A DNA stretch of 64,000 nt from Thermoplasmata archaeon (lineage in GTDB: Archaea > Thermoplasmatota > Thermoplasmata > Lutacidiplasmatales > SKW197). How positions within the stretch are numbered: the stretch's first letter is position 1; every line of letters begins with the position of its first letter. Of the stretch, positions 13,295-63,986 are shown one piece after another. Location: positions 62,001 through 126,000 of the forward strand of contig JAOAJK010000003.1 of the NCBI GenBank assembly GCA_026414225.1, given 5' to 3'. The translations under genes were made by a program, and so were the position numbers. Under the pieces are notes generated by a model. The model had not been told where the DNA came from. It saw only the letters and a list, made by a program, of their open reading frames with translations, and made no database searches.

Positions 13295-14328
13295 GCAGAA
13301 TCGTTTTCTCTTCGACCGAAAAAAGTGCAGGAAAGACGACTGTAATAATCGGGATATGGGCCAGCGCAGAAAAAAAATTCGGATACATGAAACCCCTTGG
13401 AGACCGGCTGGTTTACCAGCGGAAAAGATTGTGGGACTATGATGCCCACCTGCTCTGCAAGATTTTCAACATTCCCGATGAACCGGATACGATGAGTATC
13501 GGGTTTGAGCATGTGAAGTTAAGGTACATGTACAATGCAGAAACAACAGCCAGGCGGGTTCAAGAGATTGCCTTGAAAATTGAGAGGGAAAGAGGCGATG
13601 TATTTGTGGAAACAGGCAAGGACCTGGCTTTTGGGAGTTCTGTTCACATGGATGCAGTTTCCGTGGCTAAATACATAAATGGAAAGATGGTAGTTGTAGT
13701 CAGGGGAGACACTGACACAGTACTGGATTCCCTGGTTTTTATAAAAAAATATCTGCGCCTTGAGGGTGTGAAACTTGCAGGTGTTGTTGTGAATGGTGTG
13801 AAGAATACGGGAGAGTTCGTCGACACTAGCCAGAAGGTGCTAGAAGAAACGGGAATTCCGGTGCTCGGCGTGCTTCCCCATGTGGAGAGTTTGAGCGAGA
13901 CCTCCGTGAGGTATCTTGCGGACAGGCTGTTTGCAAAGGTGCTTTGTGGTGAAAATGCTCTGGATAAGCCAGTAAAGCGATACCTGATCGGAGCAATGTC
14001 CGCGAGCTCAGTTTACCAGCATCCGCTCATCAAGGAAAAATACAACATGCTGATTACGAGCGGTGATAGAACAGATATGATTATTGCTGGAATAGAAAAC
14101 AATGCCTCCTGCATTCTCCTCACGAATAACATTCTCCCGCCCTCCAACATAATCTCGCAAGCGAGTGTGGCGGATATACCCCTTCTGCTTGTTCCGTGGG
14201 ACACTTACACGGTGGCGGTGAAGATAGATAACATGGAACCCCTGCTCACAATAAATGAAAAATCCAAAATTGACCTTATAAAAGAAATCTGTTCAAAGCA
14301 CCTGAAAATCAGTGAAATTCTCTCTTAA
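13291..14328 (+). CDS. BioD-like P-loop protein with DRTGG domain (Pta N-terminal-like)
   Basis: A 345-residue protein. The N-terminal P-loop SSTEKSAGKTTVIIG belongs to the dethiobiotin-synthetase-like family and is followed by FGYMKPLGDR. The C-terminal DRTGG domain contains TSGDRTDMIIAGIENNASCILLTNN. This pair of domains is the regulatory N-terminal half of large phosphotransacetylases; no catalytic PTA_PTB domain follows. The start overlaps the synthetase stop (ATGA), so it is the third gene of the acyl-CoA operon and probably senses or tunes that pathway. It shares a 4-base stop overlap with the convergent DnaA-like gene. Enzymatic activity is uncertain. Confidence 0.85.
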   Translation: MSRIVFSSTEKSAGKTTVIIGIWASAEKKFGYMKPLGDRLVYQRKRLWDYDAHLLCKIFNIPDEPDTMSIGFEHVKLRYMYNAETTARRVQEIALKIERERGDVFVETGKDLAFGSSVHMDAVSVAKYINGKMVVVVRGDTDTVLDSLVFIKKYLRLEGVKLAGVVVNGVKNTGEFVDTSQKVLEETGIPVLGVLPHVESLSETSVRYLADRLFAKVLCGENALDKPVKRYLIGAMSASSVYQHPLIKEKYNMLITSGDRTDMIIAGIENNASCILLTNNILPPSNIISQASVADIPLLLVPWDTYTVAVKIDNMEPLLTINEKSKIDLIKEICSKHLKISEILS

Positions 14329-16409
14329 TCGGTTTTAAGGACTTCCAACTCCCTCTCCAGGATTTTGGTTTCCTGCTCCTTCAGGGTGCTTTCTCCGAGC
14401 GAGATTAAGAACATTCCCTCGGTTTCAGCCACCATGTCAACTATCTTCCTTATGAACTTTACCACCGCATCAAACCCGTTCGCACTTACCAGAAATTCTA
14501 TGCCATCGAGGGCAATTACGGTGTTCGGGTGAGCGTTCAGTTTCTCTTCAACCGCATAAACAATCTTTTCCAGCGAGTGGCCTATCGTCTCCGCGGTGCT
14601 CTCCTTCTCTGTGAGCCAGTATATTGATGCCTTCTGCAATTTCTCATGCTTTTCGGTAATTCTCTTCGGACTTATCCTGCTGAAAATCATGGACTCATAA
14701 CCCATCTCATGCATTGTCATGACAATCTGGAATACGATGTTTGGTCTTGTTTCCTCAACCAGGTAACTGTGGCCTTTCTGGACATTGTATTTCAATTTTC
14801 CTTTTGTTCCGTATTTATCTGTGTGCTCCTTCAGTGCTTCCTTTACGAGTGCCAGGTCAATTCCCATGTTGCTTATTGACGCGAGGGCAAAGATCCGGTT
14901 GAGGATTATTGAGAGTTCATTCACCGAAAGATTTATCCCAGCTATGTAGTTAATCACCGCCGGCTCAAGCGTGATTCCGTGCTCCTGGGCGTACCTCTTA
15001 AGAATTTCCTTCTTTGTTTCAAAGTCCGGCTCCGAGATGTTAACCAGGAGCCCGCTCGTGAAGCATACAAGAAGTTCGGTTTCAAGTTTTGGAATTTCCG
15101 TCGGTGAGATCTTGGAACCTATCACAACCTGCTTCTCCTCCTTCACGAATCTGATAAGCACCCCTGCTAGCAATTTCTGGAGTTCATCCTTTCCCGCAAT
15201 TTCCTCAAAATTGTCTATGAAAATGGATTCTGCGGTCACTAATCTGGCAACCAAGTTGCTTTGTTTGTCCCTGTATTTCTCAAATACAGTCAAAAGGATG
15301 GGGATATTTGTAAACACGATTCTTTTCCCAGAAAGGGCTCCCTTCTGCAGATTTCCAGCAATTGCATTCAGAAGATGGGTTTTACCGCTCCCCTCGGGCC
15401 CAAATATGAACACAGGATTGTAAAGTTTACCTGGGTACTTGGAAATTCCATGGGCAACAGCATAAGCGAATCTATTGGAGGCACCCACTATAAAATTCCT
15501 CATGCTGAGATTCTCCACAACCTTTCCAAAGGTTTCGTCCTCTGCACTGCATTTCACGCACTGCCGGTCCTTGTCAAGCGGGCTCCCACATCTGGGACAG
15601 AATGGTTCTGGATTTTCTTCCGCCTTTGCCTTGTGCTGGATAATGAGATTATAAACCGCAGCTTCCTTCTTTTTCCTCTCCTCTTCCTCCCTTTGCCTGG
15701 TTATTATTTCCTCAAGTTCCCTGAGATGCTTTACTTCCAGTTCAATTGCCTCTGGCGTTTTTTCCTGTTCCACTCTCTGCCTTAAAGAAGAATACAGCTT
15801 CCGGCTCTCCTCTACCCCTTTCTTTTTTTCCAGTGCATCTTTAAGTTTTGATACCAAATCAGGGAATCTTTCATTTGCCTCAGGATGTTCTTTGATAAAC
15901 TTGTTGAACTCCTCGCTAAGACGGATGAATTCCTCGAACTCGGACAGTATCTTCTCCGCAGATTGTTTATCTTTGAGGGCAATTTTTTCTATCTCGGAGG
16001 TGTCAATTCCCTTGCTGGTCAGCACACGGATTCTGACATCTATCTCACTTTCCTTTTTAATCTCGGTTTTCCCTTCTAGTAAGTTCCGGATTGCCTGCTC
16101 TACCTCTTCAATCCTCACCTGCCCGTGAAGTGTCATCAATGCCTTCGGGTTTTTCGAGAGTTGCCAGATTTTCTTGGATGCTTTCTCGCCCGCGTCCCTT
16201 GCACTTGCGGAAAAATAGAAGGTATCGGTAATCTGCCCTGAATCCAGGAGCACAAAACCTGTTTCAGTTTCATTTTTGTCCAGAAGCGTGACTTCAATGT
16301 AACCCGTGAACTTATGCCTTTTCAACCCGAGGAGAAGATTTTTGAGGGCCTCTTCACTGCCAGCCATCTTTCGAAGCACAAGTCCTTGTGGAACTGTTGT
16401 CTCGTACAT
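14325..16409 (-). CDS. DnaA-like AAA+ ATPase with zinc motif, coiled coil and C-terminal DUF835
   Basis: A 694-residue multidomain protein. Residues about 20-115 resemble a DUF4388/PATAN-like domain (KFTGYIEVTLLD, GFVLLDSGQITD). Residues 120-260 are charged helices with a coiled coil. Residues 271-287 form a zinc knuckle (CPRCGSPLDKDRQCVKC). Residues 300-530 match the AAA+ domain of bacterial DnaA closely: NFIVGASNRFAYAVAH, YNPVFIFGPEGSGKTHLLNAI (Walker A), SIFIDNFEEIAGKDELQ (Walker B, second Asp changed to Asn), SVNELSIILNRIFALAS (sensor 2 region). The DnaA arginine finger (RLxSRF) reads LLVCF, and the sensor-2 Arg reads Asn. The DNA-binding domain IV is absent; a DUF835 domain (545-690, LDGIEFLVSANGF) replaces it. 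Archaea normally use Orc1/Cdc6 for initiation, so a signalling or scaffold ATPase is more likely. Confidence 0.85.
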   Translation of the reverse strand: MYETTVPQGLVLRKMAGSEEALKNLLLGLKRHKFTGYIEVTLLDKNETETGFVLLDSGQITDTFYFSASARDAGEKASKKIWQLSKNPKALMTLHGQVRIEEVEQAIRNLLEGKTEIKKESEIDVRIRVLTSKGIDTSEIEKIALKDKQSAEKILSEFEEFIRLSEEFNKFIKEHPEANERFPDLVSKLKDALEKKKGVEESRKLYSSLRQRVEQEKTPEAIELEVKHLRELEEIITRQREEEERKKKEAAVYNLIIQHKAKAEENPEPFCPRCGSPLDKDRQCVKCSAEDETFGKVVENLSMRNFIVGASNRFAYAVAHGISKYPGKLYNPVFIFGPEGSGKTHLLNAIAGNLQKGALSGKRIVFTNIPILLTVFEKYRDKQSNLVARLVTAESIFIDNFEEIAGKDELQKLLAGVLIRFVKEEKQVVIGSKISPTEIPKLETELLVCFTSGLLVNISEPDFETKKEILKRYAQEHGITLEPAVINYIAGINLSVNELSIILNRIFALASISNMGIDLALVKEALKEHTDKYGTKGKLKYNVQKGHSYLVEETRPNIVFQIVMTMHEMGYESMIFSRISPKRITEKHEKLQKASIYWLTEKESTAETIGHSLEKIVYAVEEKLNAHPNTVIALDGIEFLVSANGFDAVVKFIRKIVDMVAETEGMFLISLGESTLKEQETKILERELEVLKTD

Positions 16410-31348: not shown

Positions 31349-34300
31349 ATGCTTAGGGATATTCAGAAGGAGTTTAATCTTCAGGCACTGGAGGCGAAAA
31401 TATTCAAATACTGGGAGGAGCAAAAAATTTACACTAAAATAAAGAAGGCGAGGGAAAAATCTGAAAAGTTATATATTCTTGATGGGCCACCCTTTGCGAC
31501 CGGGATAGTCCACATTGGCCATGCGAGAAACAAGGTACTGAAGGATGTGTTGATAAGATACCACATGATGAACGGGAAGAATGTGGTTGCAATACCTGGC
31601 TTCGACATGCACGGGGTCCCGATCGAGCTAATGCTCGAACAGAGTTTGATGCTGAAGGGAAAGAAGGAAATTGAGAGATTCGGGCTCGAGAAATTTATTG
31701 AAAAATGCAGGGATTTCACGCTTGAGAACAAGAACAAGATGATTGAGGAGTACAAGATGCTCGGCATCTGGTTCGACTGGGACAGGACATACCTTACACT
31801 CTCGGATGCCTACATCGCCTCCGTGTGGTGGAGCATTGCGAGGGCGTACGAGCGGGGTTTCCTGGTAGAAATGGAAAGGGTTGTGCCCGTATGCCCCAGA
31901 TGTGAAACTGCAATTTCAGATAATGAGGTGGATTACAGGGAGATAAAGGTGCGCGGAGTTTATGTGATGGTCCCATTGAAAGGAAGGACTGACGAATTTA
32001 TCCTTGCATGGACTCCCTATCCCTGGATAGTCACAGGTGCCCTTGCAATTGCAGTAAACCCTGAGACAGAATATATAAAGGTAAAGGTGAAAACAGGTGG
32101 GGAGGAACATATTCTCATCACCTGCAAGCAGAATTTTGAAAAGGTCATTGGCTACAGACATTATGATAGCACTGAAATTCTGGACACAATCAAGGGAGAG
32201 AGTTTGAAAGGTATTGAGTACATTCCCCCGCTGCTCATAGAGGTACCCTATCACCAGGAGGTGAAAGGGGAGTGGGTCCATAAAATTGTTACCAGCAAGA
32301 GGGTGCAGCCAGTGCATACAGGTGCCTTTTTCGTCTCGCCGGGAATGGGAACAGTGGAATTTGAGATAGGGCAGGAGTACAATCTACCTGTATTCAATCC
32401 GTTTGAAATTGATGGAACCTTTACTTCCAAAATAATCAACAAATATGCCAGGTTCAGGTATGACGATGCCAATTCCCTGATTACGAGGGACCTGAAGGAT
32501 GGCGAGGTCCTGTACGCAGAGGTAGAGGAGATAGTAAGGGCAGGGCATTGCTGGCGTTGCGGTTCCCAGCTCTTGCACATCCCAACCAGGCAGTGGTTTA
32601 TCAGGACCAAGGGAATGAGGGATAGATTGCTGGAGACATCGGAGGGAATTAAATGGATGCCACCATGGGTGGGCACGGGCAGAATGTATGATTTTCTCTC
32701 GCATCTCAAGGACTGGTGTATCTCAAGGCAGAGGTACTGGGGCATTCCTATGCCCATCTGGAAATGTTCATGTGGCAACACGAAGGTTGTCTCCTCAATC
32801 GAAGAACTGAAGACAGGCAGGGGATTTGTTGAAGGGCAATCCCTCCATATTCCTTCGATCAACAATGTAGTGTTTACCTGTGATAAATGCGGAAAGGAGA
32901 TGCGCCGTGTTGAGGATACGGTGGATGTCTATATTGACTCGGGTGTGGCTTCATGGGCGTCCCTCGGTTATCCAGGTAAAAAAGAAGAGTTCAATGCCCT
33001 TTGGCCTGCAGACATCATAGTTGAATCCATCGGACAAACTAAAAACTGGTTTTTCTCCCAGATGGTTCTAAGCATGATTGCATTTGATAAACCTCCGTAT
33101 CAGACCGTGTTCGCCCATGGGCATGTTGTTGATGAGAAACGCAAAACGGTCACAAATGTGTCACCGAATGTGGATACCCCCCGGAACCTTGCAGGACGGT
33201 ATGGTTACGACGCTCTCAGATTATATCTTCTGTCAAAAGAGCCATGGCAGGACCTGGTTTACAGCGAGGAACGAATAAAGGGGTTCTACCGTTCCCTTTC
33301 GATACTCTGGAACTGTGCGGTTTTTGCAAATCTATACATGCGAAATGATAAGGTGGAGCTGAGAGATCTCACCTATGAAAATGTGAGAGACCATCTTTCT
33401 ACAGAGGACAGGTGGATGCTCTCAAGATTGGAGAATCTGAAGCTGCAGGCAACAAGTGAGATGGAAAACTTTGCTTATCACAAACTTTGGAAAATCGCCG
33501 AACGGTTTATCAAAGGAGAGTTTTCAAGAATCTACATAAAGGCAGTGCGGGAACGGATAAGAGCGAAGGGGCTTTCCCATGAAAAGATGGCTGCCTATTA
33601 TACTCTGGCCGAGGTTCTCAGCGGACTTGCAAAAATCCTCGCCCCACTTGCACCCCATGTTGCAGAGGAAATTTACCTCACATACGATGCAAGGCATGAA
33701 AGCGTGTTTTTCGAGCACTACCCAGCAGCGAACAAGGTCCTGATAGATGAACGGATTGAGAAGAAAATGAAAATTGCGATGGAAATTGTAAAGGAGATTA
33801 ACAGGGCGAGGGCGAATGCTGGAATTCCTTCTAGAATCCCTCTCAGAAGGGTGATTGTGAAGTCAGATAAGGAGGAAACATTTGAAAGTGCAAAGGATTT
33901 TGAGAAACTGATCACCCAGTTTGTGAATGCAAGAAAGGTTGAAATTTTACCACTTGGCAAGGACTGGGATGAGCTCATTCTGGAGGTCGTGCCCAATCCT
34001 TCGGCAATAGGGCTCGTTTACAGGCAGTGGGCAAGCAAGATAGGGCACCTCCTGAAGCTTCAGTCCGCAAAGAAAATCAAGGAAGGTATAGAGCGGGGAG
34101 AGTACATGCTGGGAATTGAAGGGCAGCTGGTCAGAATTCTCCCGAACATGGTCTCATTCAAGTCAAAGCTTCCAGAAAAGGTTGTCTCTGCACCAATCAC
34201 CAACGGCACAATCTACGTGGATTTGAATTTCACAGAGGAAGACATAGTCGACTCAAACATAAGAAGCTTGGTCCGTATTATCATGGAGATGAGGAAGGAG

Positions 34301-35641
34301 ATGCGGCTGAATGTGGATGATATAGTTGACCTTTACATTGCGACCGATGAACAGCTCCAGAACATTCTCCTCTCATATGTGGACAACATCAAAAATAAGG
34401 TCAATGCCAGGAACATTGAATTTGTATCAGGAGAAGTTCCAGGTGAATATGTGGTCGAGTGGAATCTAAGGGAGACCTCGCTAGTTCTCGGCATCACACC
34501 CCTGTACTTCAAATCGACCCTTGAGAAATTCATGGGGATACCCGGAATGACCCCCGAGCGCGGAAAAGCCCTGTTTAACGCCGGTTATGTCTCCCTTGAG
34601 AAATTAAAGACCGCTACAGTAGACGACCTCCAGAAGATACCCGGAATCGGGAAGACCTTTGCGAAAAAGATTGTTAGTTATTTTGCGGCTCCGCCTGCGG
34701 CTCAAAAACCAGAAACCCTGCCTGAAAAGAAGGTGGAAGCTGTAGAGGAGGAGCGGTTGCCAGCTGTTGAAAAGACAATTCCTGGAGGTATAGCTCCGTC
34801 TCCTGCACAGGAGAAACAAGCCCAGGCACAGACAGCAATTCCTGAGCCGAGCGAAAAGGAGAGGGAGAATTTTGTTCGCCTTATGATGACGAAATACACA
34901 ATCCCGGGGCTCGGACCTTCAAAGGCAAGAGCCCTCTATGATGCGGGCTACAGAACTGTCGAGATGCTGGCAAGTGCAAAAATTGAGGATCTAGCAAGGA
35001 TGCCTGCAATTGGAGAGAATCTCGCAAGGCGGATTCTGAGCTATCTATCTGAGTTCGGTGTCACGCCAGTGCAAGCCCCAGCAGAACCTGCTGCCAGCGT
35101 GCCTAAGACTGAACAGGTTGTGGAAAGCGGGGTGGAGAAAGTCGCGGAAAAGAGCGGTGGTGGAGAAATGGAGGAAAAGCCAGTCGAGTTCAGGCAGGGC
35201 TATTCTTACATAATCAAATGTGAACGGGCAGATAGAGCATACAAATATCTGAAAGATTATATGTCAAAGGCAAAACCGAAGGTAATCTGCGTCACCAGGG
35301 ACTACCCGGAAAAAATAAAGCAGAAATACGAACTTGAGGATGTTCCAATAATCTGGCTTTCGAATGTGGGCAAGGAAAATGCTGTGCGACCCAAGGACCT
35401 CGAAAAGCTCAGTTTAATTCTAGAACAATTCCTCTCGAAGAACAGGGATTCTGTTATATTCCTTGACGGAATTGAATATCTGATTACCAACAATAACTTC
35501 ATTACAGTGCTCCGCCTCATTCAATCGCTCAAGGACCAGATTGCAATTAACAATGCGATGCTTCTTATTCCGATAAATCCTGCAACGATGGAGGCATCCC
35601 AGTTCAACTTGATTGAGCGTGAAGTGGACGATGTAATCTAA
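31349..35641 (+). CDS. ileS: Isoleucyl-tRNA synthetase-like protein fused to two HhH domains and DUF835
   Basis: A continuous 1430-residue ORF. Residues 1 to about 1045 are a full-length class I synthetase of IleRS type: DGPPFATGIVHIGHARNKVLKD (HIGH at 55-58), GFDMHGVPIE, CPRCETAISDNEVDY, DWCISRQRYWGIPMPIW, VYIDSGVASWASLGYP. The KMSKS loop is degenerate: HGHVVDEKRKTVTNVSPN stands where DEKGRKMSKSLGN is expected. The editing domain is altered too (TPYPW for TTTPW; SPGMGTVEF for APGHGEED). Two helix-hairpin-helix units follow at about 1060 (IPGMTPERGKALFNAGY) and 1185 (IPGLGPSKARALYDAGY), joined by Pro/Ala/Glu-rich linkers. DUF835 ends the chain (1280-1430, FLDGIEYLITNNNF). Whether this is the only IleRS of the cell or a repurposed paralogue cannot be seen here. 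Confidence 0.88.
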   Translation: MLRDIQKEFNLQALEAKIFKYWEEQKIYTKIKKAREKSEKLYILDGPPFATGIVHIGHARNKVLKDVLIRYHMMNGKNVVAIPGFDMHGVPIELMLEQSLMLKGKKEIERFGLEKFIEKCRDFTLENKNKMIEEYKMLGIWFDWDRTYLTLSDAYIASVWWSIARAYERGFLVEMERVVPVCPRCETAISDNEVDYREIKVRGVYVMVPLKGRTDEFILAWTPYPWIVTGALAIAVNPETEYIKVKVKTGGEEHILITCKQNFEKVIGYRHYDSTEILDTIKGESLKGIEYIPPLLIEVPYHQEVKGEWVHKIVTSKRVQPVHTGAFFVSPGMGTVEFEIGQEYNLPVFNPFEIDGTFTSKIINKYARFRYDDANSLITRDLKDGEVLYAEVEEIVRAGHCWRCGSQLLHIPTRQWFIRTKGMRDRLLETSEGIKWMPPWVGTGRMYDFLSHLKDWCISRQRYWGIPMPIWKCSCGNTKVVSSIEELKTGRGFVEGQSLHIPSINNVVFTCDKCGKEMRRVEDTVDVYIDSGVASWASLGYPGKKEEFNALWPADIIVESIGQTKNWFFSQMVLSMIAFDKPPYQTVFAHGHVVDEKRKTVTNVSPNVDTPRNLAGRYGYDALRLYLLSKEPWQDLVYSEERIKGFYRSLSILWNCAVFANLYMRNDKVELRDLTYENVRDHLSTEDRWMLSRLENLKLQATSEMENFAYHKLWKIAERFIKGEFSRIYIKAVRERIRAKGLSHEKMAAYYTLAEVLSGLAKILAPLAPHVAEEIYLTYDARHESVFFEHYPAANKVLIDERIEKKMKIAMEIVKEINRARANAGIPSRIPLRRVIVKSDKEETFESAKDFEKLITQFVNARKVEILPLGKDWDELILEVVPNPSAIGLVYRQWASKIGHLLKLQSAKKIKEGIERGEYMLGIEGQLVRILPNMVSFKSKLPEKVVSAPITNGTIYVDLNFTEEDIVDSNIRSLVRIIMEMRKEMRLNVDDIVDLYIATDEQLQNILLSYVDNIKNKVNARNIEFVSGEVPGEYVVEWNLRETSLVLGITPLYFKSTLEKFMGIPGMTPERGKALFNAGYVSLEKLKTATVDDLQKIPGIGKTFAKKIVSYFAAPPAAQKPETLPEKKVEAVEEERLPAVEKTIPGGIAPSPAQEKQAQAQTAIPEPSEKERENFVRLMMTKYTIPGLGPSKARALYDAGYRTVEMLASAKIEDLARMPAIGENLARRILSYLSEFGVTPVQAPAEPAASVPKTEQVVESGVEKVAEKSGGGEMEEKPVEFRQGYSYIIKCERADRAYKYLKDYMSKAKPKVICVTRDYPEKIKQKYELEDVPIIWLSNVGKENAVRPKDLEKLSLILEQFLSKNRDSVIFLDGIEYLITNNNFITVLRLIQSLKDQIAINNAMLLIPINPATMEASQFNLIEREVDDVI

Positions 35642-36536: not shown

Positions 36537-38414
36537 ATGATCTATGAGGAAATTCTCCAGCATCTCTATGCTTTAACCAGGTTTGGGACCAAACTCAACC
36601 TTGATAACATTGCATGTTTGCTTGAGAAGCTTGGAAACCCTGAAAAAAAATTCAGGACGGTGCATGTCACTGGGAGCAAGGGGAAGGGTTCGGTTTGTGC
36701 CTTCCTTCATTCAGTTTTAAAAGCTGCAGGGTTTAAAACGGGACTTTACACCTCCCCACATCTCATAGAGTTTAATGAGAGAATTGTAGTAAACGGGGAA
36801 AAAATTCCAAAGGAGAAGGTTGTGGAATACTATAACATGATAAGGGACATTGTCGGGGGGATGGTGGCCCAAGATAGAACAAAGCAAGTTACATTTTTTG
36901 AATTCACCACAGCCATGGCATTCAAATATTTTGCGGATTTGAAGGTGGATTATGCGGTTGTGGAGGTTGGGCTTGGGGGACGGCTCGACGCCACGAATGT
37001 GATTTTCCCTGATTGTTGTATCATCACGAATGTTGAACTCGAGCATACCAATGTGCTCGGCAAAACAATTGAAAAGATTGCGAGGGAGAAGGCAGGAATA
37101 ATAAAGCCAGGTGTGCCAGTGGTAACTGCTGCAACTGGTAGAGCTCTGAAGGTGATTGAGGAAGTTGCGAGGTTGAATAATTCGGAAGTGCTTTTGCTGA
37201 AGAAGGAGATGATTGAGATAAAGGAGAACAGGAAATTTTCGGTGCGATATGGGGACTGGTCTCTCGAAGATCTCGAGATCTCACTGTCAGGGAATTTTCA
37301 GTTTGAAAATGCAGCCCTCGCTGTGCTTTGCGCAAAGGTGCTAGGGATAGACGAGAGAAGCATAAGGGAGGGGCTAGAAACTGCTGTATGGCGTGGACGA
37401 TTTGAGAAGGTGCATCAGAACCCTGATGTGATTGTTGACTGTGCCCACACACCCAGAAGTGCAGAGGCGCTTGTGGAATCACTTGCGGCAAACTATGACA
37501 GGGTTAATTTTGTTTTCGGGGTATTTAAGGATAAGCGGAAAGGGAAGATTTTGAGAACGCTCTCGAGAATAGGGAGTGAGATAATAATCACTGAGCCGGA
37601 TTCTCCCAGGGCCGAGAAAGCTGAGAGAGTGAAAAGGATCGCTGAGAAATACTTTAGAAAGGTTGAGGTCATGCAGAGGGAGCAGGCGTTTGCCGCAATC
37701 CTCTCGAGGCAAGGTGTCTGGTGCATTTGCGGTTCCGTGTATCTTGCTGGTGACGCTCTTGCGTTCTTTGAAAAACAGAAATCCGAACGGGTCCCGGAAA
37801 ATACTGGAATCGACTGGTATAAGCTTGTGGAGACCCTTGAGAAAACCTACGGAGATGCTGGGCATTACGATGACCCCTTCAGGGTACTGGTTGCAACGAT
37901 TCTGTCCCAGCGCACAAAGGACGAGGTCACCTATCCGAGGGCTGAGGCATTATTTGCAAGGTATCCAGATGCCCTATCAATTGCAAGGGCAAAGCCGGAA
38001 GAAATTGCGGAAATAATCAGGCCAGTTGGGTTTTATAATATCAAGGCACGGAAGATTATAGAGGTGGCCAGGATTGTTGTGAACACCTACAATGGGAAGG
38101 TGCCAGATAGTATGGATGCGCTTTTGAAATTGCCAGGAGTGGGAAGAAAAACCGCAAACTGCGTGCTCGTGTTCGGGTTCGGAAAGGATGCCCTGCCCGT
38201 GGACACCCATGTCCATCGTATTTCGAACAGGATGGGTGTGATAAATACTGAGAACCCCGAAGAAACCGAAAATGCGTTGAAGCGGGTGGTCCCGAAACCA
38301 TTGTGGAAAAAAATTAACTACTTGTTTGTGGAGCACGGGAAGAATGTTTGCAAGCCAGTAAAACCAGGATGCGAAAGATGCCAGATTGCGGGATTCTGTG
38401 GGAGGAGAGTGTAG
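36537..38414 (+). CDS. FolC-type Mur ligase fused to endonuclease III
   Basis: A 625-residue bifunctional protein. Residues 1 to about 415 are a folylpolyglutamate/dihydrofolate synthase-like Mur ligase: VHVTGSKGKGSVCAFLHSVL (P-loop), GLYTSPHLIEFNERI, VEVGLGGRLDATNV, then VIVDCAHTPRSAEALV. From about 422 an endonuclease III follows: ILSQRTKD, LPGVGRKTANCVL (helix-hairpin-helix with catalytic Lys), PVDTHVHRISNRMG (catalytic Asp), and CKPVKPGCERCQIAGFC, the C-x6-C-x2-C-x5-C iron-sulfur site. Both active sites look complete. Endonuclease III removes oxidised pyrimidines. In archaea the ligase could extend folate, coenzyme F420 or a methanopterin-type cofactor. The two activities have no obvious link. 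Confidence 0.9.
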   Translation: MIYEEILQHLYALTRFGTKLNLDNIACLLEKLGNPEKKFRTVHVTGSKGKGSVCAFLHSVLKAAGFKTGLYTSPHLIEFNERIVVNGEKIPKEKVVEYYNMIRDIVGGMVAQDRTKQVTFFEFTTAMAFKYFADLKVDYAVVEVGLGGRLDATNVIFPDCCIITNVELEHTNVLGKTIEKIAREKAGIIKPGVPVVTAATGRALKVIEEVARLNNSEVLLLKKEMIEIKENRKFSVRYGDWSLEDLEISLSGNFQFENAALAVLCAKVLGIDERSIREGLETAVWRGRFEKVHQNPDVIVDCAHTPRSAEALVESLAANYDRVNFVFGVFKDKRKGKILRTLSRIGSEIIITEPDSPRAEKAERVKRIAEKYFRKVEVMQREQAFAAILSRQGVWCICGSVYLAGDALAFFEKQKSERVPENTGIDWYKLVETLEKTYGDAGHYDDPFRVLVATILSQRTKDEVTYPRAEALFARYPDALSIARAKPEEIAEIIRPVGFYNIKARKIIEVARIVVNTYNGKVPDSMDALLKLPGVGRKTANCVLVFGFGKDALPVDTHVHRISNRMGVINTENPEETENALKRVVPKPLWKKINYLFVEHGKNVCKPVKPGCERCQIAGFCGRRV

Positions 38415-60455: not shown

Positions 60456-60739
60456 GGAGAGATAATCATGGTAAGGGTATATATAATTTTGCGAACAAAT
60501 TTACAATATTCCAACAAAAATCCTGAAATATTAATTTATTACAAAATCGTGTAAACCAACTTTAAACTAGAATAATGAAAAAGAAAAAAATTATTTATAC
60601 ATCCTTTCAACCATCGGATGAAACCCAAATGAGGAAAACCGACCAAATTCCGCCTACTCTCATTCATAAGGTCTGTTTTCATCCTGTTAATTATGTTGTC
60701 CTTCAATCGCAAACTATTTTTGGGTTTAGGGTATTACTG
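60456..60739. other. A/T-rich intergenic region with divergent promoters
   Basis: This 284-base gap separates the divergent beta-helix and LarE-like genes. It contains the minus-strand TATA box listed separately and a plus-strand candidate (aaaaaaattatttatacatcc, near 60588-60600). The track extends the LarE ORF back to 60575, but the added 55 residues are not conserved-looking. No RNA gene or repeat is evident. Confidence 0.5.
60478..60488 (-). promoter_or_regulatory. TATA box for the beta-helix protein gene
   Basis: The minus strand reads caaaattatatatacccttacc, centred about 28 bases from GTG 60455 and 37 from ATG 60446. No Shine-Dalgarno lies between, which points to a leaderless mRNA. 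Confidence 0.55.
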
Positions 60740-61588
60740 ATGAGGATGGATGCGCAATCCGCAGGGGAAAAATTCGCAGCTCTGGAGAAAAAAATAACAG
60801 GGCAGGGCAGAATTCTGATTGCATTCTCTGGCGGTGTGGACAGTGCGGTGCTTGCCCATCTGGCCAGGGCAGAAAACCCCCTGTGTGTTTTCGTATTGGA
60901 CGAAACCGTAAGCAAGGAAGAGTATGAGCAGGCAAAAACCACAGCAGCAGGCCTTGGGGTGCAACTCCAGGTTCTGGAACATAGCATAATGGATGAAGAG
61001 TTCTGCAAAAACACTGTGGAGCGATGCTATCACTGCAAGAAAGCAATGATCGGAGCATTGAAAGAATTTGCTCGTAAAAACGGAATAAACTGCATTGCGA
61101 TGGGAATCACAACCTCGGATTTTAAAGAGTACAGACCAGGCATCAAAGCCGGATACGAGGAGGGAATCTGGTATCCATTCGTGGATTTTGGAATTTCGAA
61201 GGAGGAAGTGCGAGAATATGCAAGAAAGCAAGGTCTTGGAGTTGCGGAAAAGCCCGCGAATGCCTGTCTTGCGTCCAGAATTGCCTACAACCAGAAAATC
61301 ACAACCGAGTTGCTTATGCGAGTGGATGCCGCAGAGAAGTTTTTGCATGGTCTCGGCTTTAAGGTTGTGCGTGTCCGCGTGCATGGAAATGATGCCAGGA
61401 TTGAACTGGGCAAAAATGAGTTTGCGAAGGCATTCTCCACCGACCTCCTTCAGAGGATTGCAAAAAAATTGCACGAACTTGGTTTTGTCCATGTCTCCCT
61501 AGATATGGATGGCTACAGGCCGGGAAGCATGAACGAGGGCATCACCCAGCCACAGATCGGACAAGCGCGGGGGGAGAAGCGGCACTAA
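60740..61588 (+). CDS. larE: LarE-like ATP-dependent sulfur transferase (PP-loop)
   Basis: A protein of about 282 residues. RILIAFSGGVDSAVLAHLA is the PP-loop that adenylates a carboxylate. EKPANACLASRIAYNQKIT includes the Cys whose sulfur is sacrificed in LarE of Lactobacillus plantarum, and ERCYHCKKAM adds a CxxC typical of archaeal members. LarE adds sulfur to a nicotinic-acid derivative to make the nickel-pincer cofactor of lactate racemase; LarA, LarB and LarC are not in the window, so another thiolation target is possible. Start chosen at ATG 60740, after AGGG; ATG 60746 is close. It shares a 4-base stop overlap with the DUF835 gene. Confidence 0.83.
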   Translation: MRMDAQSAGEKFAALEKKITGQGRILIAFSGGVDSAVLAHLARAENPLCVFVLDETVSKEEYEQAKTTAAGLGVQLQVLEHSIMDEEFCKNTVERCYHCKKAMIGALKEFARKNGINCIAMGITTSDFKEYRPGIKAGYEEGIWYPFVDFGISKEEVREYARKQGLGVAEKPANACLASRIAYNQKITTELLMRVDAAEKFLHGLGFKVVRVRVHGNDARIELGKNEFAKAFSTDLLQRIAKKLHELGFVHVSLDMDGYRPGSMNEGITQPQIGQARGEKRH

Positions 61589-63183
61589 ACTGTCCTTGTT
61601 TTATCAAATTCCTTTCTCAGCGTGTACATGTCCTTCTCATCAAACGCCTTGGGGCTTATTGGCACGAGCACAGTCGCATGGTGCATCGCAGCCACATCAT
61701 TAACCTTCTTCATGAATTTGAGTGCATCCAGAAAATTGTTTCCGAGCACAAGATTCTCAAACCCATCAAGCAGAATTACTGCATTCTTGTTGCTTTTGAT
61801 GAAGGATGTGATTGCCCTCATTATTTCGAATTCCATGCGGCTTGGCTTCACCACGGGCACCGCAGGGGTCTCCGTGTCCGAAAGCCAGTAGATTGTGGCA
61901 CTCCCGATTCCATACTTCTCTCGGACTTTGTCCGGGTAGGTGGTGGTGATGCACAGCCCTGGCGAGTCCTTTATCATATCTCCAAAGATTTCAAACGCCT
62001 TCTCGGTTTTGGATTCAAATATGAGGTAGCTGTATCCCTTTTCGAGCGGCACCTCAATCTGCTGCTGTGCAGGGAGTTGGGGACTCTCCGCTACCTCCTT
62101 CTCTTCCTTCACATCTTTCGGTGGCAACGGTGCTGGCTCTTCCTTTCTCTCCCTCAAGATTTTGCCCGTGATTTCAGAGGTAATCGCAGCGTAGAAGGGG
62201 AGCAGCAATTCTTCTTTTGGACAGTAAAATCTCAGGATCAACCTTGCTTCCCCACCCTCCTCAATCGTTTCCACATAGGCCGCGTAAAGATTATCCCAGT
62301 GGTCATGGGCGAAGAATTTGGTGACTGCACGGAAAAATCGGGCGTCCTTGACTGACTGGAAGGGGACCTGATACATGTTTCTCTCTCTGATTACATCGCA
62401 TATGATCCGATGAAGGGTTTCACCGCTGAACCTTATGTTCTTTATTTCCTTCTCGATTTTCCTCATCGTGTGGGTTGCCACGCGCCAGTGCTCCTCTATC
62501 ACCTCTCTCGGATAAAGGGCTGTGAATTCTATGCTCAGATATTTTGGCTCCGTTTCAATGGCAACTTTTTCGTTTCCATCAGAATACCGGATTTTTGCCC
62601 GAACTGGCTCATTTCTGAATTCTTTTAGCGGTTCAAGCTCAAACATGATTCTTGCATGTTCATCTGGCTCAATGTATTTTATCTGCTTGGCGTCTGTTTC
62701 TGGCTTAAGTTTCTCCTTGTTTGCAACCAGCTCTATGTTCACATTCTCAATTCTCTTCCCAGTCCGGTTACCTATATTCAGGGCATAATGGACCGCGGTG
62801 TCTTTTATGTAAAGGGCAGGAATTACCTCAAGTGTCTGGGCTGGCTTCGCCTCCTGTTTTTCCTCTTCTTTTTTTACCCGCATCCAGTAGACCTCATGCC
62901 CGCAGGTTCTGCATACTCCGAGGCCATTCGATGCAAAGGTCACATCGCGGCTCTGGCATCTCGGGCATATGAGGAAGATCTGCCTTGCACCGCAGATTCT
63001 GCATACAATTTCTCCCGTATCTAGATGTTCGACGCTGTTGCTGCCGCAGTGGGTGCATCTTTTCCAGATAAATTCATAGCCGCAGGCAGCACATTTCCCA
63101 TTTCCCTCATCGTAGAATACGAGGCGTGTTCCACCGCATCTGCTGCACTTCCCATGGGTCGGCTTGTAGATATATTCCTCCAT
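61585..63183 (-). CDS. Triple zinc-ribbon protein with C-terminal DUF835
   Basis: A 532-residue protein. Residues 1-105 hold three zinc ribbons in a row: CSRCGGT...CAACG, CTHCGSN...CRICG and CPRCQSR...CRTCG. A beta-rich region (VHYALNIGNRTGKRIENVNIELV) resembles CARDB-like folds, then a helical segment (EEHWRVATHTMRKIEKEIKNI) and a further alpha-beta part (RLILRFYCPKEELLLPFY). DUF835 occupies about 385-525 (GYSYLIFESKTEKAFEIFGDM; VILLDGFENLVLGNNFLDALKFMKKV). It is the third DUF835 protein of the window. DUF835 is KaiC/RecA-like in outline but lacks a P-loop. Likely a signalling or scaffold protein; the function is not known. Confidence 0.82.
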   Translation of the reverse strand: MEEYIYKPTHGKCSRCGGTRLVFYDEGNGKCAACGYEFIWKRCTHCGSNSVEHLDTGEIVCRICGARQIFLICPRCQSRDVTFASNGLGVCRTCGHEVYWMRVKKEEEKQEAKPAQTLEVIPALYIKDTAVHYALNIGNRTGKRIENVNIELVANKEKLKPETDAKQIKYIEPDEHARIMFELEPLKEFRNEPVRAKIRYSDGNEKVAIETEPKYLSIEFTALYPREVIEEHWRVATHTMRKIEKEIKNIRFSGETLHRIICDVIRERNMYQVPFQSVKDARFFRAVTKFFAHDHWDNLYAAYVETIEEGGEARLILRFYCPKEELLLPFYAAITSEITGKILRERKEEPAPLPPKDVKEEKEVAESPQLPAQQQIEVPLEKGYSYLIFESKTEKAFEIFGDMIKDSPGLCITTTYPDKVREKYGIGSATIYWLSDTETPAVPVVKPSRMEFEIMRAITSFIKSNKNAVILLDGFENLVLGNNFLDALKFMKKVNDVAAMHHATVLVPISPKAFDEKDMYTLRKEFDKTRTV

Positions 63184-63275
63184 GAACCTTAAATGGTGGA
63201 GGTGTAAATAAAGGTATGGTAGACCTATCTCCCGCGGGCATAAATCCCATATACTCCCTCCACCTGCTCCCGACC

Positions 63276-63986
63276 ATGACCGAGATGCTTTACATGACAG
63301 AGGGCTGCTACCTCAAGGAATTCGATGCAAAGGTTGTTGCTATTCACGAAAAATCGGTGGTGTTTGACAGAACTGCCTGCTATCCGGATGGAGGGGGCCA
63401 GCCATCAGATACCGGGGTGCTGCAGAGCAAGGCGGGCACCGCAAAAATTACCCATGTGAAAAAAGCAGAAGGTGAGGTTTACCATGAAATTGATGGCCCG
63501 TTGCCAGAAGTTGGAGAAACTGTGCATGTGAGTATTGACTGGGAGCGGAGGTATGCACACATGCGGATGCACACGGCCCAGCACCTCCTCTCCGGTATTG
63601 TTTACAAATTTTTTCAGGCGAGAACTGTGGGGAACCAGATATATGCAGACCGCTCGCGGGTGGATTTCATGCCCGTAAATTTTACAGATGCGGATGTTCA
63701 AAGGGTTGTTGCTGAATTCGATGGAGCAATCAAAGCACAGCTTCCAGTAAGAATTTACATGATGGAGAAGGACAAATTTTTGAATCATGAGGAGGGTGAA
63801 AGAGCCAACATCCATCTCCTTCCCCCCGAAATCAAGGTCTTGAGAATTGTGGAAATTCCTGGTTACGATATGTGTCCGTGTGCCGGAACCCATGTTGCCT
63901 CCCTCGCAGAGCTCGGAAAAATAAAGATTCTGAAGGTTGAGCGGAAAGGAAAGGACCGGTACAGAATTGCATACACGCTGGGGTGA
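63276..63986 (+). CDS. alaX: Alanyl-tRNA editing protein AlaX
   Basis: A 236-residue stand-alone editing domain homologous to that of alanyl-tRNA synthetase; it removes Ser or Gly wrongly attached to tRNA-Ala. DRTACYPDGGGQPSDTG, RMHTAQHLLSG (HxxxH zinc ligands) and MCPCAGTHVASLAELG (C-x-x-x-H) form the zinc site. The track starts at 63216, but MTEMLYMTEGCYLKEFDAKVV from ATG 63276 is the family N-terminus, and a TATA-like cataaatcc about 30-37 bases upstream suggests a leaderless start. It is divergent from the DUF835 gene and ends 14 bases before the window edge. Confidence 0.9.
   Translation: MTEMLYMTEGCYLKEFDAKVVAIHEKSVVFDRTACYPDGGGQPSDTGVLQSKAGTAKITHVKKAEGEVYHEIDGPLPEVGETVHVSIDWERRYAHMRMHTAQHLLSGIVYKFFQARTVGNQIYADRSRVDFMPVNFTDADVQRVVAEFDGAIKAQLPVRIYMMEKDKFLNHEEGERANIHLLPPEIKVLRIVEIPGYDMCPCAGTHVASLAELGKIKILKVERKGKDRYRIAYTLG

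Follow-up and report, generated by a model that had tools for sequence, protein, structure and literature searches.

C-terminal DUF835 domains on IleRS-like, DnaA-type and zinc-ribbon proteins of a Thermoplasmata archaeon, with loss of catalytic residues in two of the three heads

What does one and the same domain do at the end of proteins that differ in their heads? The window, i.e. the whole stretch of 64,000 nucleotides analysed here, raises this question three times. A preliminary description of the locus had reported three proteins with a C-terminal DUF835 domain (PF05763), and a Pfam scan bears this out, with all three domains above the gathering cut-off of 33.1 bits (99 bits for the zinc-ribbon protein, 90 for the DnaA-type protein and 124 for the IleRS-like protein). 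The start G-[HY]-S-Y-[LI] and the marker LDGFENL/LDGIEFL/LDGIEYL, both taken from that description, are visible in the alignment. The proteins and their domains are as follows.

14325..16409, minus strand: 694-aa AAA+ ATPase of the DnaA type, ending in DUF835; Walker A intact; missing are the second Asp of Walker B, the arginine finger and the sensor II Arg
14328..14780, minus strand: DUF835 of the DnaA-type protein (Pfam 558-688 of 694, E 2e-25)
31349..35641, plus strand: degenerate type A IleRS - HHH - HHH - DUF835, 1430 aa; HIGH intact, TVTNV in place of KMSKS, editing motif altered
35189..35638, plus strand: DUF835 of the IleRS-like protein (Pfam 1299-1425 of 1430, E 5e-36; 98% identity to congener G001)
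61585..63183, minus strand: 532-aa zinc-ribbon/DUF835 protein; three CxxC zinc ribbons within residues 1-110 (about 12-105), middle region at residues 111-345, DUF835 at residues 381-532
61588..62046, minus strand: DUF835 of the zinc-ribbon protein (Pfam 391-526 of 532, E 2e-28; AF2 mean pLDDT 88)

DUF835 is a domain with the fold of RecA and the clock ATPase KaiC, without a P-loop, an assignment that is already known from the literature and agrees with the predicted model and the sequence profiles obtained here. Galperin et al. (2018, PMC5847659) list it as an inactivated KaiC-like domain (iKaiC) and an output domain of archaeal response regulators; the Pfam family and the assignment are the same as here, and Thermoplasmata are included. 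In that study the domain is fused to REC and PAS, whereas the partners found here are IleRS, a DnaA-type ATPase, zinc ribbons, 7TM regions and an HTH-NTPase-TPR protein. Structure prediction, which the preliminary description had proposed as a check, gave a RecA/KaiC fold (AF2 with the three window copies and one relative as input; mean pLDDT 88, pTM 0.86), with FlaH (4yds, E 9e-6) and KaiC CI as the best PDB matches in Foldseek, so an unrelated fold was not seen. A profile of 24 DUF835 copies likewise retrieved FlaH from the PDB (E 1e-7), aligned across the Walker-B half, and the DUF835 of the zinc-ribbon protein was matched by the NCBIfam models for FlaH and ArlH. The DUF835 model gave weak matches to two KaiC-family proteins encoded in the genome. 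FlaH/ArlH, the KaiC-like archaellum protein, is the best match of DUF835 in both structure and sequence, with the Walker-B region aligning; it was, however, solved with bound ATP and Mg, while DUF835 lacks the P-loop and, compared with the FlaH chain, is shorter by ~80 residues. At the position of the P-loop, many DUF835 copies carry a short Y-[LI]-[VI]-x-E-x-[RK] segment.

The source genome (1.9 Mb, 93.6% complete) contains 31 DUF835 copies in 23 proteins, a count, also proposed in the preliminary description, that includes some copies scoring under the curated cut-off. The absence of a P-loop noted there holds for all of them (0/31); the P-loop of the DnaA-type protein sits in its AAA+ domain. 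The C-terminal position is a tendency, with D03, D06, D13 and D21 as exceptions, and eight proteins carry two tandem copies. Three DUF835 proteins in 64 kb, against 0.78 expected from 23 per 1.9 Mb (Poisson P>=3 = 0.044), is marginally above chance and close to the genome density, so the genes are not considered clustered in the window. In the same genome (G000), 33 matches to KaiC-family ATPases were obtained, 24 scoring over 99 bits; for 1.9 Mb this seems a large set.

Other DUF835 architectures were observed in passing. Membrane proteins at L037, L038, L010, L012 and L017 have two tandem DUF835 copies where a kinase would be expected, some with a detected HisKA_7TM region, and at L038 two near-identical proteins of this kind adjoin. 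L035:2287-5484 (minus strand) encodes a 1065-aa protein with the order HTH, DUF835, STAND-like NTPase and TPR, the DUF835 thus lying near the N-terminus, and L040:2811-3881 (plus strand) encodes zinc ribbons and DUF835, followed at the C-terminus by what may be a ubiquitin-like domain (weak Pfam match to YukD).

The preliminary description had called the protein at 31349..35641 an IleRS fusion. The fusion stands, but a working IleRS does not: KMSKS reads TVTNV, it is also gone in the congener, where the loop is similar, and the same genome encodes another IleRS, 977 aa long, that has both HIGH and KMSKS. A role as the housekeeping enzyme was ruled out on these grounds. Since HIGH is intact in the window protein, residual activity is possible; in orthologues of the same order HIGH is gone too. 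The anticodon-binding domain is still detected (Pfam, 2e-30). The protein passes the NCBIfam TIGR00392 (ileS) equivalog cut-off (703 vs 621 bits) and would therefore be annotated automatically as IleRS. That standard models label at least some decayed copies IleRS is a warning for annotation. Downstream, 36537..38414 (plus strand) appears, by eye from the translation, to be an odd fusion of a folylpolyglutamate/dihydrofolate synthase and an endonuclease III-like domain.

Across the class, two IleRS types were found: type A (DGPPYTTG..H.GT), usually with HHH and DUF835, and the standalone type B (EGPPTANG..HIGH). IleRS-HHH-DUF835 fusions occur throughout this class of archaea. Most families have an intact fusion as the sole IleRS found, e.g. 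f4, f14, f16, f17, f21, f22, f25, f28, f29 and f30 (search threshold E 1e-130, single-contig genomes among them); in those families the DUF835 fusion is thus a working enzyme. Some intact fused enzymes have MHKS in place of MSKS. Both types could be read in 15 genomes (two each of f1 and f2, three each of f9 and f5, and one each of f3, f6, f13, f18 and f20), and exactly one was intact in 15/15. The intact copy is type B, except in f5 and f20, where it is type A. The decayed gene, whichever its type, is still a long open frame. A type B copy that has no DUF835 and has lost KMSKS, and partly HIGH, was seen beside an intact fused type A at L128, L133 and L134 (G102, G125 and G155; f5) and at L132 (G123). 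As a decayed IleRS without DUF835 is kept in f5 and f20, the retention of a pseudo-IleRS does not need DUF835. This reciprocal decay, in which one IleRS of two stays intact and the other persists as a long gene, sets the non-enzymatic job of the synthetase apart from its enzymatic one, and the former is directly testable in species with a dead fused copy. Outside the class, no long-frame candidate with an IleRS-type DUF835 was shown to be an IleRS when the longest frame per stretch was compared.

In a synthetase tree, the intact copies form one clade and the decayed copies lie outside it on long branches. Because this tree alone cannot count losses, an organism tree was built from EF-2 and RpoA1 with a quick search. 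On this tree, decayed fused copies appear at three places (f1-f3; f6 and f9; f13, f18 and f24), the last group lying, with strong support, inside a set of intact families. A single old clade of decayed fused copies was accordingly rejected. Three changes are needed, at least two of which are forced by the starred branches, so that the fused IleRS has lost its motifs in at least two lineages and probably in three.

The DnaA-type protein shows a comparable pattern. Its AAA+ domain matches Bac_DnaA (PF00308, residues 303-456, E 7e-29), as in bacterial DnaA, and the protein stays under the TIGR00362 full DnaA equivalog cut-off (165 vs 344 bits). No Pfam match to the DNA-binding domain IV was found, the C-terminus being taken by DUF835. 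Residues 1-110 resemble, by eye, a DUF4388/PATAN-type signalling domain, with no Pfam match. DnaA-type ATPases are present in 27/42 family representatives of the class; of 12 loci examined, ten have a full terminal DUF835, one has a partial match beside masked bases and in one the frame ends early. The orthologues read in other families keep Walker A, the DD of Walker B, the arginine finger and the sensor-II Arg, resembling bacterial DnaA in these ATPase features, whereas the genus of the window retains Walker A only, with DN (Walker B), VCF (arginine finger) and SVNEL (sensor II) in the window protein. Catalytic residues are thus gone in two of the three DUF835 heads, which the preliminary description had missed.

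Next, conservation was compared between the window genome and one congener (G001). Synonymous sites are saturated between them, and therefore pN alone was compared, in place of dN/dS. DUF835 is the most conserved module in all three window proteins between these two congeners. In the pseudo-IleRS, it is 98% identical, against 86% for the catalytic/editing core and 71% for the anticodon domain, and its pN of 0.012 compares with 0.072 for the catalytic core and 0.056 for the core of the intact IleRS, which is 91% identical. In the zinc-ribbon protein, DUF835 is 97% identical and the head 82-87%; in the DnaA-type protein, the values are 92% for DUF835, 90% for the AAA lid and 77-84% for the N-terminal region, coil and AAA core. 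With the IleRS-like and DnaA-type proteins, the combination of a decayed head and a preserved DUF835 is seen twice within the window. Across families, the DUF835 domains of decayed IleRS are 35% alike vs 20-21% for the catalytic parts, while in intact IleRS the two are about equal (63 and 61%). In f2, however, drift has also reached the DUF835 attached to the decayed IleRS (20-33% to the window), so the constraint is uneven among lineages and the claim is limited accordingly.

A tree of 54 DUF835 domains places those of the DnaA type in a single clade (100/99) and groups those of the IleRS type together (93/83), but for one long-branch intruder. Such head-specific clades across families indicate that the fusions are old and vertically inherited, and consequently the partners of DUF835 may be head-specific. 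The earlier proposal of a docking or sensing module plugged onto different heads, which might share one interaction network, is therefore upheld only in part: a single fold, the missing P-loop, the differing heads and the strongest constraint (98, 97 and 92%) agree with it, but free plugging of the domain onto new heads does not fit the tree.

Taken from the sequences, decayed heads joined to a nearly unchanged DUF835 suggest that these proteins are now sensors and not enzymes. In the reading we favour, to which we give an even chance, DUF835 is a docking or relay module, and the decayed IleRS and DnaA heads of this genus are receptors that report through it. DUF835, having lost its P-loop, would serve for protein docking or relay; tRNA(Ile) or isoleucine status would be the input of the IleRS-like head, and ATP or a DNA or protein partner that of the DnaA-like head. 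DUF835 would then hand on the state of the head to a partner, for which the KaiC-family ATPases of this genome, more than 20 in number, are the most plausible source. We infer this partner family because DUF835 is a dead copy of its fold and the genome holds 33 matches to it, which makes these ATPases the natural candidates. KaiC-like proteins have been tied to archaeal regulation (PMC13286277).

A competing explanation, which we regard as rather unlikely, is that the decayed IleRS is kept to serve the working enzyme as a non-catalytic partner, such as a tRNA-binding or editing subunit or a chaperone, with DUF835 incidental or an assembly aid. SLIMP/SerRS heterodimers are a precedent (PMC9437257), the anticodon-binding domain is still detected, and in the reciprocal case of f5 and f20 it is the DUF835-free copy that has decayed and the fused copy that is intact. 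A tRNA-binding subunit, however, predicts the reverse of what is seen in the genus of the window: of the folded regions, the anticodon domain varies most (71%) and DUF835 least (98%). The editing motif, too, has changed. DUF835 might instead sense a small molecule or nucleotide, with a ligand site replacing the P-loop, and regulate its heads in cis with no docking to KaiC. The Y-[LI]-[VI]-x-E-x-[RK] segment at the P-loop position would suit this, as would the description of MEDS, another listed iKaiC domain, as a sensor domain (PMC5847659). Regulating dead IleRS or DnaA heads in cis would make little sense, though, and several tandem DUF835 proteins have membrane domains alone or nothing else that is recognised; we hold this reading improbable as well.

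It is very unlikely that the unusual signature loop still allows the IleRS-like protein of the window to work as a synthetase or to activate a different substrate. The protein's ileS score, its HIGH motif and the MHKS variant of some intact fused enzymes speak for such activity, against which stand the loss of KMSKS in both congeners, the intact IleRS of the genome and the same-order orthologues without HIGH. That the IleRS-like and DnaA-type genes are decaying, functionless pseudogenes would account for the lost catalytic residues, but is hardly credible given long open frames in many species and several lineages and a low pN against saturated pS in all main domains.

Within the favoured reading of DUF835 as a relay, a more specific proposal can be made tentatively, and we consider it doubtful: IleRS-HHH-DUF835 would be a receptor for amino-acid starvation in archaea. 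It would monitor the charging of tRNA(Ile) and pass the signal by way of its inactivated KaiC domain to KaiC-family ATPases; the logic would be like that of GCN2, but assembled from unrelated components and retained after independent losses of activity. In GCN2, a non-charging HisRS-like domain (class II) is joined to a protein kinase. The IleRS-like protein resembles it as a synthetase domain without the full catalytic motifs combined with a signalling-type domain; it differs in consisting of a class I IleRS and an iKaiC domain, with no kinase domain in the Pfam scan. Non-charging synthetase paralogues have precedents in LeuRS-I, SLIMP and HisZ (PMC9437257). LeuRS-I of Sulfolobaceae and LeuRS2 of Halobacteria are likewise duplicated archaeal class I synthetases, with charging reduced or none and a possibly regulatory role (PMC9437257). 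Unlike these, the present case concerns IleRS, the motifs are lost in the sequence, HHH and iKaiC domains are fused and the fusion is class-wide. In the literature searched, the full text of a single paper mentioned DUF835, and class-wide fusions of the domain to IleRS or to DnaA-type ATPases were not found; as far as that search reaches, such fusions, with catalysis by the head repeatedly lost and the gene kept, are unreported.

The zinc-ribbon protein might be a third adaptor of this kind, with an input head of its own. One full-length relative was found, in G001 (82% across 371 head residues), and outside the genus the head has no clear equivalent, just weak partial matches. Its middle region has a single-sequence AF2 pLDDT of 47 and no PDB relative (best E 0.03). 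By eye, its divergent neighbour at 63216..63986 (plus strand) resembles an AlaX-type alanyl-tRNA editing protein and its other neighbour at 60575..61588 (plus strand) a LarE-like ATP-utilising protein.
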